Below, one piece after another: positions 10,568 through 15,483 of a DNA stretch of 45,296 nt (within the stretch, counting starts at the first letter, position 1; each line of letters opens with the position of its first letter). The notes under the pieces are model-generated. The model was not told the origin of the DNA. It saw only the letters and a program-made list of their open reading frames with translations, and did no database searches. The DNA is taken from assembly GCA_018607365.1 (NCBI GenBank), contig JABBBT010000011.1, positions 1 to 45,296 of the forward strand. The letters are read 5' to 3'. Source of the DNA: SAR86 cluster bacterium (GTDB taxonomy: Bacteria > Pseudomonadota > Gammaproteobacteria > Magnimaribacterales > D2472). The translations under genes and the position numbers were made by a program.

Positions 10568-13555
10568 ATGCAGCTTAAACACATAAAACTAGCAGGTTTT
10601 AAAAGTTTCGTAGATCCAACGAAGATATCCTTTCCTACAAATTTAGTCGGCGTCGTCGGTCCTAATGGATGTGGTAAATCAAACGTAATTGATGCTGTTA
10701 GGTGGGTGCTAGGGGAGCTTTCTGCGAAGAACCTGAGAGGCGAGTCAATGGTTGATGTTATTTTTAATGGGTCTGAAAATAGAAAGGCATCGGGCCAGTG
10801 CAGTATCGAACTACTTTTTGATAACTCAAGCGGAAAAATAGGCGGAGAATATGCAGCATTCAATGAGATATCCATTAAAAGAGTAATGAATAGGGATGCC
10901 CAATCAACTTACTTTATAAATAGTACTAAATGCAGAAGAAAAGATGTTCAGGATATTTTTCTTGGAACAGGCCTTGGCCCTAGCTCTTATGCGATCATTG
11001 AACAGGGTATGGTAAGTAGGCTTGTTAGCGCTAAGCCAGAAGAATTAAGAACGCATATTGAAGAAGCTGCTGGAGTATCTAAATATAGAGAAAGACGAAG
11101 AGAGACTGAGAGCAGAATTAAGAAAACTAAAGAAAACTTATCTCGAGTAAAAGATATTAAAGATGAGATAGAAAGATTGATACGTAGGCTAGAGAACCAG
11201 GCTAATGCAGCTGAAAAATATAATTCTTTAAAGAAAGAAGAATCTGAAAACCAAATCAATACAGCGATATTGTTTTCACTAGAAGCTAAAAAAAATAGAG
11301 ATCAACTTCAAAAAAGTCTTGATGGCTTAAATAGAGATTTAAAAATAAAACAAGCAGAGTCTGACACGAAGCAATCTCAGATTGATGAATTTAGAACTCA
11401 AAATGAATCTGTTGTCGATTCTTATGAAACAGCTCAAAAGAATTTTTATACTATTGGTGCTGAAATTGCTAAGCATGAGGCTAACCTCCAGAATATATCT
11501 AAGTCCGAGGCATCTAATCTTGCGGCATTAGAAAGAGCAAAAGAGAGCTATGAAAAAGCTGTAGAAAAAGAATCTACTTTTAAGGATCTTAGCCCAAAAC
11601 AACAAGAACTTAAGCTCAATATCTCAATAATTAAAGCTTTAGATGCTGTAAAAAATAAAGATGCTATTGTAGAAAAAATTAAACCTTTAGAAGATTCAAT
11701 TGAGTCTAAGCAGTCTGATTTAGATTCTCGCGAAGAAGCAATAAATTCTGTTAAAGAAAAGCAAAAAACTGCAAACTTGAAGTTGGATGAGTTAAAGGCA
11801 TCAAGCTTTTCAATTGGTGGGAATATAGCTAGGCTTGAAGGCAGTATTTTGAACCTAGAGAAAGTTGAGTCCCAAGCAAATAGGGATTTAGTATCTGTAA
11901 AAGAAAGCTATAAAAAAGCTAAAGAAAAAGAATCTAGTACAGATAACTTAAGTCCTAAAGAAAAGGCAATTCATTTAATTGATAGTATTTCAGATTTATT
12001 GACAAATCTTGGGTCTAGCGCAAATGTAATAAATGATAAAGTTAAAGAATTAAAAGAGTTGCTTATGAGCATACTTAAAATAGCTTCAGATCAATCAAAA
12101 TCATATACAGAAGAATTCCTTAAAAGACAACACGAAGTTGAAGCTTTAATCCAAAAAACTTCAGAAGAAAAAGTATCAGCAAAACAAAGTCTTGTAACAT
12201 TAACTAGTCAACAAGAAAGCTTAAATGAGAGCCTTATAACAAGCTCATCTGCGTTAGCCACACTTGATGCAGAGGTTAGAGAATTGGATGGTGGTAAGTT
12301 GTTTGTAGCAAACGAAATGAGATCTCTAGAGAAGGATGTAAGCAATCTCAGGTTAGACTTAAGAACCTATGAGATTAATCTACAAAATGCATCTCAAGTT
12401 CTAGATAAGGCTGGGATTAATATTTCAGAACTAGATCAAAATAAATATCAAGGAATGGATCTTGAAGGCTTAGAAGTGTCACTTGATGACATACAAAAAA
12501 ATATCAACGACCTAGGTTCTATTAATCTGGCATCACCAGATGAATACCTTGATAGACAAAATGAACTATTTGAAACTATAAAAAATAGTAAAGATAAGAA
12601 ATTAGAAATACAAAATATAATGTCGGATCTTGTTAATAAGAGCTCTAATGCTGAGTCTATTCTATTAGAAATACGCCAAAAACAATCTAGGTTTAATGAA
12701 AGCATGAGAGAGCTTGAGAACAAAAAATCTATAGCTGAACTAGATCTCAAATCCATATCTGAAAAAGTAACGAATGTAAGACTTGATCTCAAAACCTATG
12801 AAATAAATCTTGAAAATGCTAATGCCAAGATAAAAGATGCTGGCCTAAAAATTGAAGATATTGATTACTCTAAATATGATGGAATGCAAATAAAAGAACT
12901 TCAGGACAGGCTTGCAGATATTCAAGCTAAGATCATTAGATTGGGGGCAATAAACCTAGCGGCACCTGAAGAAATTGCTCAAGAGTCAAAAAGAAAAGAA
13001 GAATTAGATATTCAATACAATGACTTAACAGAAGCCCTTGATAAATTGTCAGGTGCAATTAAAACTATTGATACTGAAACTAAAACTAGATTTCAAGACA
13101 GTTTTGATGCAATTAATGCAAGAATGAAAGAGGTTTTTGCAAAACTTTTTGGTGGTGGTTATGCAGAATTGGCTCTAACAGAAGGGGATGCTCTTAATGC
13201 TGGCGTCATAATAATGGCAAGACCTCCTGGTAAAAAGAATTCATCTATCTCTCAATTATCTGGCGGTGAAAAAGCCCTGACTGCATTGGCATTAGTTTTT
13301 GGGATATTTGAATTGAATCCAGCTCCTTTCTGTATATTGGATGAGGTTGACGCTCCCTTAGATGACTTAAATACAATGAGATTTATCAATATGGTTGAAG
13401 AGATGTCAAAGACTGTTCAGTTTATTTTCATAACTCATAACAAAGTTTCAATGGAAAAAAGTGACCACTTGATGGGAGTTACTATGCAAGAAGCTGGAGT
13501 ATCAAGAATGGTTTCGGTTGATGTAAATCAAGCACTTGAATTCGCAGAGGCCTAA
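10568..13555 (+). CDS. smc: Chromosome segregation ATPase SMC, short and hinge-less
   Basis: A 995-residue SMC protein. The N-terminal head has Walker A GPNGCGKS (31-38) and the conserved GLGPSSYAIIEQGMV block. The C-terminal head has the signature LSGGEKA (about 897-903) and Walker B FCILDEVDAPLDD (about 921-933). Both heads are closely of gammaproteobacterial type. SMC dimers organise and separate chromosomes, usually with ScpA/ScpB. This one is about 170 residues shorter than usual. No hinge motif is visible in the middle (about 200-780), which is almost all coiled coil. Two segments are internally repeated (325-357 with 445-477; 591-660 with 734-803). It heads the smc-zipA-ligase cluster. 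Confidence 0.9.
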   Translation: MQLKHIKLAGFKSFVDPTKISFPTNLVGVVGPNGCGKSNVIDAVRWVLGELSAKNLRGESMVDVIFNGSENRKASGQCSIELLFDNSSGKIGGEYAAFNEISIKRVMNRDAQSTYFINSTKCRRKDVQDIFLGTGLGPSSYAIIEQGMVSRLVSAKPEELRTHIEEAAGVSKYRERRRETESRIKKTKENLSRVKDIKDEIERLIRRLENQANAAEKYNSLKKEESENQINTAILFSLEAKKNRDQLQKSLDGLNRDLKIKQAESDTKQSQIDEFRTQNESVVDSYETAQKNFYTIGAEIAKHEANLQNISKSEASNLAALERAKESYEKAVEKESTFKDLSPKQQELKLNISIIKALDAVKNKDAIVEKIKPLEDSIESKQSDLDSREEAINSVKEKQKTANLKLDELKASSFSIGGNIARLEGSILNLEKVESQANRDLVSVKESYKKAKEKESSTDNLSPKEKAIHLIDSISDLLTNLGSSANVINDKVKELKELLMSILKIASDQSKSYTEEFLKRQHEVEALIQKTSEEKVSAKQSLVTLTSQQESLNESLITSSSALATLDAEVRELDGGKLFVANEMRSLEKDVSNLRLDLRTYEINLQNASQVLDKAGINISELDQNKYQGMDLEGLEVSLDDIQKNINDLGSINLASPDEYLDRQNELFETIKNSKDKKLEIQNIMSDLVNKSSNAESILLEIRQKQSRFNESMRELENKKSIAELDLKSISEKVTNVRLDLKTYEINLENANAKIKDAGLKIEDIDYSKYDGMQIKELQDRLADIQAKIIRLGAINLAAPEEIAQESKRKEELDIQYNDLTEALDKLSGAIKTIDTETKTRFQDSFDAINARMKEVFAKLFGGGYAELALTEGDALNAGVIIMARPPGKKNSSISQLSGGEKALTALALVFGIFELNPAPFCILDEVDAPLDDLNTMRFINMVEEMSKTVQFIFITHNKVSMEKSDHLMGVTMQEAGVSRMVSVDVNQALEFAEA
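11540..11998 (+). repeat. Internal protein repeat 1 in SMC
   Basis: Bases 11540-11638 and 11900-11998 encode two related segments of about 33 residues: KESYEKAVEKES followed by DLSPK, and KESYKKAKEKES followed by NLSPK. They lie in the predicted coiled coil, 120 residues apart. The DNA copies have diverged, so the duplication is not recent. Confidence 0.7.
12338..12976 (+). repeat. Internal protein repeat 2 in SMC (C-terminal neck segment duplicated)
   Basis: Bases 12338-12547 (residues 591-660) and 12767-12976 (734-803) encode two copies of a 70-residue segment, identical at about 36 positions in a hand alignment. Both contain RLDL(R/K)TYEINL near the start and LG(S/A)INLA(S/A)P at the end. 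In normal SMC proteins the LGxINLAA segment occurs once, just before the C-terminal head. Confidence 0.8.
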
Positions 13556-14176
13556 ATGCAAAGTAATCTTGATATTTATCTTATAGGCCTTTCTGTACTA
13601 ATATTTCTAATCATTGTTTTTCTTTTTATTAGAAAGATATCTAGTGGCAATGAGTTGAAGGTAAAAATAGAGGAAGTATCCGATTCTTTTGAAATCAAAG
13701 AATTTGATGATGTTAGGTTAGAAACTCAGAAATCATTTGACTTTGAAGAACAAGAATTTATAAATGATCAAGAATTAGTGGTCCTCAATTTAATTTCTAT
13801 GGATAAGTCATCTTTTGATATTGAGCAGTTATTTGGTTTTATGAGTAACTCAGGAGCTAAGCTGGCTCATGGATTTTTTTCACTTAAGGGTAAAAGTAAT
13901 AAAGAAATTTTTAGGGTCGCTAATGCTTTAAACCCAGGAACTTTTGAAGAAAATACAAAGACTTTCGCTGTAATAATGGCAACAGATCTTAATAATGTTG
14001 AAGAGCCATTATTGGCAGTAAGAGAGATGGTTGCGTTTGCTTATAACTTCTCTGAAAAATTCTATGCCAATATCTGTGATGGGGAAAGATTGCCAATTAC
14101 TAAACAAATGATTTCACATATTGAAACAAAAGCTCAAGAGGTTACGAGGCTAAGACAACTTAAAAATTTTGATTAG
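13556..14176 (+). CDS. zipA: Cell division protein ZipA
   Basis: A 206-residue protein with an N-terminal membrane anchor (about 7-26), a short acidic linker and a C-terminal ZipA domain (about 70-206). The domain contains SGAKLAHGFFSLKG and MATDLNNVEEPLLAVREMV, typical FtsZ-binding elements. ZipA tethers and bundles FtsZ protofilaments at midcell and is restricted to Gammaproteobacteria. E. coli ZipA (about 328 aa) has a long Pro/Gln linker that is nearly absent here. It begins on the base after the smc stop. Confidence 0.88.
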   Translation: MQSNLDIYLIGLSVLIFLIIVFLFIRKISSGNELKVKIEEVSDSFEIKEFDDVRLETQKSFDFEEQEFINDQELVVLNLISMDKSSFDIEQLFGFMSNSGAKLAHGFFSLKGKSNKEIFRVANALNPGTFEENTKTFAVIMATDLNNVEEPLLAVREMVAFAYNFSEKFYANICDGERLPITKQMISHIETKAQEVTRLRQLKNFD

Positions 14177-14187
14177 CATTAAAGATA

Positions 14188-15483
14188 ATGGCAAATAAAA
14201 TACTTCCTTGGCAAATCATCCAGAAACTTGAGAGTGATAATAGCAGGCTCTTTAAAGAAGATGTTATTGAAGAGCACCTAAGCAAAATAGATATTCAAGA
14301 AGGCTTAGCAATGTGCTTAGACTCATTGATAACTTTCGGCGTTAAGCAAGTTCCTGAATCCAAAGAGGATGGACCTGGGCTTAATTGGGAGGATTTTAAA
14401 TCGAGTGCTTTATTATTAATTGAGCGTGAAAAAACAGGACATGCTGCTCGTGATCTTATTATTGAATTATTAAATCAAGCAACATCAGAACAGTGGAATG
14501 ATTGGTACAGAAGAATCCTAATTAAAGACTTGAGGTGCGGTGTAAGTGAAAAAACAGTTAATAACGTTGCTAAGAGAATGGATATTCAATACAGAGTTCC
14601 AGTATTTTCTTGCATGCTAGCTCACGATGGAGCTAAGCATCCAAAAAAAATTCAAGGCTCATGCTTGGTAGAATATAAATATGATGGTGTAAGAGTTATT
14701 GCTATTACAAAGAATAATTCAACAACACTGTATAGCAGGAATGGAAAAATCTTGAGTAACTTTCCACATATAGAAGAAGCACTGAATAAAAAAGAATTCA
14801 ATGGTCTTGTTTTTGATGGTGAGGTTATGAGTGATGATTTCCAATCCTTAATGAAGCAGGTGCATAGAAAAACAAATGCAAAAACTGAAGATGCATATCT
14901 TGCTCTTTTTGATGTATTGCCTATTAAAGAATTTAATGAAGGTAAAAGTTCTCTTGATACACTCCAACGAAAAGAGGTTTTAACTACATTGGCAAATAAT
15001 TTTAGTGATTGTATAAAACCAGTAGAATTTACTGTTATTGATTTTGATACAGAGGCTGGAGAAAAAACATTTGCTTCAATGAATAAAAAGGCATTAAGTG
15101 AAGGGTACGAAGGTTTAATGATTAAACCAGAAAAAGCTTTATATGAAAGCAAGAGAAGCCATGCATGGCTAAAGATTAAACCATTTATAGAAGTAACTTT
15201 AAAAGTAGTATCTATTCAAGAGGGTACTGGTAAACATGAAGGCAAGCTTGGTGCATTTAGTGTTGAGGGAGATGATGATGGTAAGTTTTTTTCACTGAGC
15301 GTAGGGAGCGGTCTCACAGATGAAGATAGAGAGAGTTTTTGGGCAGCAAAAGACTCACTTGTTGGACAGCTTATAGAGATTAGAGCAGATGCAATCACTC
15401 AAAGCATGGAAGGTGAAAATTACAGTCTTCGATTTCCAAGGTTCAAAACTTTTAGAGGGTTTGATGCCGGAGAAAAAATCTAA
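14188..15483 (+). CDS. ATP-dependent DNA ligase in the ligA position
   Basis: A 431-residue ATP-dependent DNA ligase. An N-terminal helical domain (about 1-135) is followed by an adenylation domain with motif I KYDGVR (164-169; K164 takes the AMP), motif III FDGEV (209-213), motif IV EGLMIK (308-313) and motif V WLKIKP (327-332). An OB-fold domain ends SLRFPRFKTFRGF. The DLRCGVSEKTVN segment of the helical domain recalls T4-type phage ligases. None of the NAD-ligase zinc-finger, HhH or BRCT parts is present. In related bacteria zipA is followed by NAD-dependent ligA. Here this gene fills that place, 11 bases after zipA, so it may be the replicative ligase; that is inference. Confidence 0.9.
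   Translation: MANKILPWQIIQKLESDNSRLFKEDVIEEHLSKIDIQEGLAMCLDSLITFGVKQVPESKEDGPGLNWEDFKSSALLLIEREKTGHAARDLIIELLNQATSEQWNDWYRRILIKDLRCGVSEKTVNNVAKRMDIQYRVPVFSCMLAHDGAKHPKKIQGSCLVEYKYDGVRVIAITKNNSTTLYSRNGKILSNFPHIEEALNKKEFNGLVFDGEVMSDDFQSLMKQVHRKTNAKTEDAYLALFDVLPIKEFNEGKSSLDTLQRKEVLTTLANNFSDCIKPVEFTVIDFDTEAGEKTFASMNKKALSEGYEGLMIKPEKALYESKRSHAWLKIKPFIEVTLKVVSIQEGTGKHEGKLGAFSVEGDDDGKFFSLSVGSGLTDEDRESFWAAKDSLVGQLIEIRADAITQSMEGENYSLRFPRFKTFRGFDAGEKI

Follow-up and report, generated by a model that had tools for sequence, protein, structure and literature searches.

A hingeless Smc in SAR86 bacteria, with a predicted helical tip and nested arm duplications

The Smc protein encoded in a 45,296-nucleotide stretch of DNA from a SAR86 cluster bacterium (hereafter, the window) lacks the hinge, as do the Smc proteins of its relatives across the SAR86 order. 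The hinge counts among the defining parts of SMC complexes and, to our knowledge, is normally universal in Smc. Sequence comparisons indicate that its loss is order-wide and older than a duplication of the coiled-coil arm seen in one family of these proteins. We consider it likely that they form a working Smc-ScpAB in which a helical-hairpin tip replaces the hinge and in which the arm, once shortened, was extended again by one nested insertion.

Results

The smc locus and the identity of its product

The smc frame lies between cytochrome c maturation genes on one side and zipA on the other (Table 1). Its product scores 846.5 bits against TIGR02168 (NCBIfam SMC_prok_B; cut-off, 567.35), and all the motifs of a split SMC ATPase head, namely Walker A, signature, Walker B, and H-loop, are present. 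Its N-terminal head is 76% identical to a canonical gammaproteobacterial head, in agreement with the preliminary description of the heads as intact and of gammaproteobacterial type. Among named genomes, the single-cell assembly Gamma proteobacterium SCGC AAA076-P13 has the closest Smc, at 98% identity, and most of the nearer named relatives carry the SAR86 label. The MukB model is absent among the 25 listed of the 29 NCBIfam families matched by the window protein, and no RecN-specific model is among the listed Pfam and NCBIfam families, where RecN figures solely in the shared RecF/RecN/SMC head model PF02463. The scores against the Rad50 models fall far under their cut-offs. The window protein is an Smc by descent, most likely from a canonical gammaproteobacterial Smc; since a canonical member has both the heads and a hinge, and the latter is lacking here, we describe it as a hingeless descendant of Smc. 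The genome of the window (1.18 Mb in 58 contigs, 89% complete) has a single Smc match, and one Smc per genome was also found in the relatives searched.

Table 1. Features of the hingeless smc gene, its neighbor, and its partner genes
Feature	Nucleotide positions	Strand	Residues	Evidence and remarks
smc, hingeless Smc (SAR86)	10568..13555	+	995 aa	Intact ORF; identical architecture in relatives
N-terminal ATPase head	10568..11077	+	1-170	Walker A GPNGCGKS at 31; profile matches, motifs
Outer N-arm unit	11240..11599	+	225-344	Single in short relatives; best self-offset exactly 120
Inner N-arm unit	11600..11959	+	345-464	Duplicate of outer, 36/120 identical; offset scan; inner copies monophyletic
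Distal tip, at the hinge's place	11936..12103	+	457-512	LSPKEK kink, helix 463-478, turn 479-484, helix from 485; AlphaFold2; no hinge by profiles
Inner C-arm unit	12098..12526	+	511-653	Duplicate of outer, 46/143 identical; offset scan
Second joint copy, mid-arm	12410..12535	+	615-656	LGSINLAS; AlphaFold2 breaks 615-631, 648-656; motif
Outer C-arm unit	12527..12955	+	654-796	Offset scan
Head-proximal joint	12839..12964	+	758-799	LGAINLAA; AlphaFold2
C-terminal ATPase head	13067..13552	+	834-995	LSGGE 897, Walker B CILDE 922, H-loop 955; motifs
zipA	13556..14176	+		Conserved downstream neighbor of smc; PF04354
ScpA, ScpB in the window genome	contig C39, 6713-7321 and 7380-7844			Genome search

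Beyond smc and zipA, at 14188-15483 on the forward strand, the window encodes an ATP-dependent DNA ligase (PF01068 plus an OB fold) for which no NCBIfam equivalog reaches its cut-off. Several relatives have an NAD-dependent ligA near this position (e.g., genomes G003, G009, G020, and G024). The NAD-dependent ligase (PF01653), normally the essential replicative ligase of bacteria, was not found in the window genome, in most genomes of the same genus, or in the near-complete genomes G018, G021, and G023. By these patterns of presence and absence, the ATP-dependent enzyme looks like a replacement for it.

Absence of the hinge

The canonical gammaproteobacterial Smc (1164-1170 aa) has its hinge at about residues 523-623. 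The Pfam hinge model PF06470 (SMC_hinge) has no match in the window protein up to an E value of 10, none anywhere in the window genome, and none in 60 relatives spanning the SAR86 order, some of them single-contig assemblies. Because this model overlooks some true hinges (it missed that of the Alteromonas Smc L087, and a Caulobacter control gave no match), we built a gammaproteobacterial hinge HMM from the hinge region of the 50 canonical sequences, holding out two of the Alteromonas type. This HMM finds both held-out hinges (E = 9e-10 and 6e-17), as well as a divergent hinge (2e-25), whereas every SAR86 Smc stays at an E value of 0.4 or above. Likewise, when tips from each of the four SAR86 families were aligned to the hinge with hhalign, the probabilities were 0.1-0.3%. 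These results rule out a hinge merely missed by Pfam and bear out the earlier proposal of its loss: the hinge is absent from the window protein and from SAR86 Smc. A zinc hook can also be excluded, since the CxxC motif is absent and no cysteine occurs between residues 122 and 922, the only ones in the protein being at 35, 78, 122, and 922.

The distal tip and the coiled coil

In the AlphaFold2 model of the window protein, the place of the hinge is taken by two helices, 463-478 and 485-614, joined by a turn at 479-484, with no beta-rich hinge; a helical turn had been anticipated near 460-500. The model of a 732-aa relative has arms that are all helix and a far-end turn at 361-365. In both models the confidence at the tip is moderate (pLDDT of about 54-78) and the underlying alignment is shallow. 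The arm was originally described as coiled coil over about residues 200-780. The model extends it from about 171 to about 861 and interrupts it at 334-342, 457-462, 479-484, 615-631, 648-656, 758-774, and 793-799. The tips of family f1, to which the window protein belongs, keep the motif LSPKEK...ELKxLLxxILxIAS, and the tip shows a modest excess of hydrophobicity. A Foldseek search with the model of the short relative returned 5xei, which comprises an Smc head together with its coiled coil and joint, as the best PDB fold match; the best 50 matches listed are SMC-type and Rad50 chains and are uninformative on the tip. The models suggest that a helical-hairpin tip most likely took over the hinge position.

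Distribution and length classes

Across the SAR86 order, the Smc N-terminal head was found in 171 of the 199 genomes searched, and the listed full Smc frames in these genomes range from 729 to 1010 aa, with none of canonical length (about 1165 aa); the few shorter frames represent contig ends or fragmented assemblies. Among the SAR86 loci read, the four families are of characteristic lengths: 727-733 or 995-996 aa in f1, 822-827 aa in f2, 809-810 aa in f3, and 732-734 aa in f4. The long class comprises 29 sequences of exactly 995 aa and one of 996 aa (L020), a few of which are the same genome met twice. These 30 long-form sequences, drawn from metagenome-assembled and single-cell genomes, share both the length and the repeats of the window protein. 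The same architecture in independent assemblies of both kinds shows that the gene is not an assembly artifact.

Outside the order, Smc in a class and phylum sample (Pseudomonadota outside two small-genome groups) is mostly 1150-1260 aa long, and the hinge is present in an exceptional 1000-aa Smc (genome G202). Two further proteins from gammaproteobacteria with roughly 1-Mb genomes, the 944-aa Smc of genome G340 (L118) and the 940-aa Smc of genome G237 (L119), show no hinge by either Pfam or the lineage HMM. The order of G340 is gammaproteobacterial and was represented by 25 genomes of about 0.7-1.2 Mb, whose full Smc frames are all 929-956 aa long; the hinge scan in this order covered one protein, that of G340 itself.

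Nested duplications in the arms

Two pairs of repeats had been noted in the preliminary description, and both stand out clearly from background. The pair 325-357/445-477 is identical at 17 of 33 positions (maximum of 11 in 170,812 other within-arm comparisons), and the pair 591-660/734-803 at exactly 36 of 70 (maximum of 16 in 130,149). They are the best-conserved stretches of longer tandem units, one pair per arm, with offsets of 120 and 143 residues (Table 1), which substantiates the idea that the arm was partly rebuilt by duplication. The repeats were detected by ungapped offset scans; a plain blastp self-comparison reported none. Averaged over the long forms, these two offsets give 35% and 34% identity, respectively, as against at most 14% for other offsets. 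The C-arm unit carries the helix breaks and the LGxINLAA motif of the joint; thus, the long form has a second, mid-arm joint. By residue counting, the C-arm breaks at 615-631 and 648-656 lie level with the N-strand break at 334-342, and this N-strand break is what remains there of the tip motif LSPKE.

The long protein runs N-outer, N-inner, tip, C-inner, and C-outer, with the copies nested around the tip. This order, together with the unequal offsets, excludes a hairpin that was simply duplicated in tandem as a whole. It fits the insertion, in what we infer to have been one step, of an arm-tip-arm module into another copy's tip. Two local duplications in succession would leave an identical pattern; no f1 protein with just one of the two duplications was seen among the genomes surveyed. 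Residue counts give arm lengths of about 190 residues in the short form, about 305 in the long form, and about 345 in canonical Smc. A period of about 91 residues in arm length has been described for Bacillus subtilis Smc (PMC5344682), and the added 120 and 143 residues do not fit it.

Evolutionary history and selection

In a tree of the heads, SAR86 Smc proteins form one clade (support, 0.999), and the proteins of the order of G340 and of G237 fall outside it. Because this tree keeps SAR86 separate, though its deep nodes are weak, there was no fewer than one loss of the hinge, and probably there were several. In trees of the arm units, the inner copies are monophyletic (support of 0.992 for the N and C units combined, 0.87 for N, and 0.95 for C), and the outer copies and short proteins track the head tree. 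As all inner copies form one clade, they trace to a single duplication event; separate duplications in each genus are thereby rejected. The inner clade joins the lineage of genus g9 with a support of 0.63-0.86, which hints at exchange of the inner module.

Long (995-996 aa) and short (732-733 aa) alleles coexist within genera g8 (L020, of 996 aa, compared with L025/L141) and g9 (L034/L035/L132/L133/L139 compared with L049/L136/L138). Since the two forms share genera, the inner module must afterwards have been either lost or swapped through recombination within the flanking arms, and to judge from these alleles and the common origin of the module, it is a natural arm-length switch.

Some blocks of the inner arm are merely 24-34% identical among long forms despite their fixed length. 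The strict 995 aa maintained in spite of this divergence points to strong selection on arm length in the long form. Between the window gene and its homolog L003, dN/dS is lowest in the heads (0.003), takes values of 0.02-0.06 across the outer arms and tip (tip, 0.04), and is highest in the inner arms (0.12-0.19); smc is under purifying selection.

Complex partners

ScpA and ScpB, whose presence the preliminary description had proposed checking, are both encoded in the window genome. Each was found in 53 of 61 genomes of the SAR86 order, and ParB was found in 38 of 41, the window genome included; the misses of all three are mostly in incomplete assemblies. In genomes G003 and G042, ScpA appears split or shortened; the single-contig genome G045 gave no match to either ScpA or ScpB.

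Discussion

The retention of the heads, ScpA, ScpB, ParB, and the joint makes a loop-extruding Smc-ScpAB complex, the prokaryotic condensin, the simplest reading of these observations, and the hingeless descendant probably still works like Smc-ScpAB. We envisage that a plain helical-hairpin tip took the place of the globular hinge and of the distal half of the arms in an ancestor of SAR86. One family would then have gained another copy of the head-proximal arm module, consisting of the 120-aa N-unit, the tip, and the 143-aa C-unit with its joint, through a single insertion into the tip, re-lengthening the rod from about 190 to about 305 residues per arm and furnishing each arm with a second, mid-arm joint. 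The heads would bind and hydrolyze ATP, with ScpA bridging them together with ScpB and with ParB aiding the loading of the complex. Two Smc chains would pair via their hydrophobic helical tips, probably in a four-helix arrangement that closes the ring, and DNA would be moved by opening and closing of the arms without a hinge channel. Such a mode of dimerization would differ from those of Smc, MukB, and Rad50.

Dimerization by the tip, closure of the ring, and the mechanics are inferred. B. subtilis Smc in which the hinge was swapped for the unrelated zinc hook of Rad50 supports normal growth, and its authors concluded that the fold of the dimerization domain is irrelevant to chromosome segregation in this organism (PMC5344682). 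The hinge of SMC complexes has been proposed to act as a gate to bypass DNA-bound obstacles; a Wadjet complex with the elbow-to-hinge segment deleted still cleaved plasmid DNA once a crosslink closed the ring but had lost obstacle bypass (PMC12647877). By analogy with these two cases, the ring in SAR86 is probably closed by the tip in the form of a helical bundle, and no hinge bypass would be expected.

These proteins might instead have no distal dimerization at all, the hairpins being held by head engagement and the ScpA bridge only, in a V shape with an open far end. Profiles and hhalign leave no recognizable dimerization domain, and the tip has little additional hydrophobicity, as would be expected of such an arrangement. 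However, the f1 tip motif is conserved beyond the needs of a plain coiled coil, and the engineered hingeless Wadjet JetC required an artificial ring-closing crosslink for plasmid cleavage, the read-out of extrusion (PMC12647877). We therefore judge an open far end to be unlikely. A different protein, such as a heterodimeric partner, could compensate for the lost dimerization domain by giving a distal link or hinge in trans, but with neither a second Smc nor a PF06470 match in the window genome or its relatives, single-contig assemblies included, we hold this to be very improbable. The reading of the tip as a hinge so strongly diverged or reduced that it escapes sequence profiles is nearly refuted: the blindness of Pfam to some true hinges, such as that of the Alteromonas L087, would leave room for it, but the lineage HMM that recovers the Alteromonas hinges brings up no SAR86 protein below an E value of 0.4, the hhalign probabilities are negligible, and the SAR86 tip has about 50 residues, all predicted as helix without strands, whereas in canonical relatives the hinge model matches about 100 residues. 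Finally, a pseudogene, frameshift product, or assembly artifact is for practical purposes refuted by open frames of matching, strictly kept length in many independent genomes, single cells included, and by dN/dS far below 1.

A working Smc-ScpAB closed by its hairpin tips thus remains our preferred reading. A wider proposal, which we put forward tentatively and regard as somewhat doubtful in its entirety, is that hinge-free Smc-ScpAB motors operate in SAR86 and at least one other order with small genomes, either as a previously undescribed helical-hairpin dimer or unclosed, and that the duplicated joint of the long form is a mid-arm elbow or a second dock for ParB. If hinge-free motors of this kind exist, these bacteria would need neither hinge gating nor hinge bypass. 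That ScpA, ScpB, and ParB were kept while the hinge was dropped across an order of abundant ocean bacteria shows that evolution can do without the hinge, and natural proteins with two different arm lengths make its function open to direct testing. Moreover, nested duplication would be a natural way to extend both antiparallel strands of the rod together, possibly in one event. Beyond the two studies cited here (PMC5344682 and PMC12647877), we found no published account of SAR86 Smc or of a hingeless Smc in the openly licensed literature.

Of the known systems, the Smc of Smc-ScpAB (TIGR02168) is the nearest, with orthologous heads, joint, and arm, the same ScpA/ScpB/ParB context, and the smc-zipA neighborhood. 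The SAR86 proteins differ from it in having a helical tip and no hinge and in being 727-996 aa long among the loci read, as against about 1165 aa; the long form differs further in having both the head-proximal arm module and the joint twice. The B. subtilis Smc(Zh) chimera (PMC5344682) is similar in having an unrelated distal element in place of the hinge, with the ATPase and arms kept, but is engineered and carries a Rad50 zinc hook, whereas the SAR86 tip is natural and cysteine-free. Rad50/SbcC shares SMC-like heads, a long coiled coil, and the lack of an SMC hinge; in contrast to it, SAR86 Smc has no CxxC zinc hook and scores far below the Rad50 cut-offs. MukB, Wadjet II/III, and Acetobacter Smc also depart from the canonical hinge channel, and their channel-less hinges are associated with mostly longer arms (PMC12647877). 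The SAR86 proteins have no hinge and shorter arms: the short forms run opposite to this trend, and the long form merely regains a near-canonical arm length.
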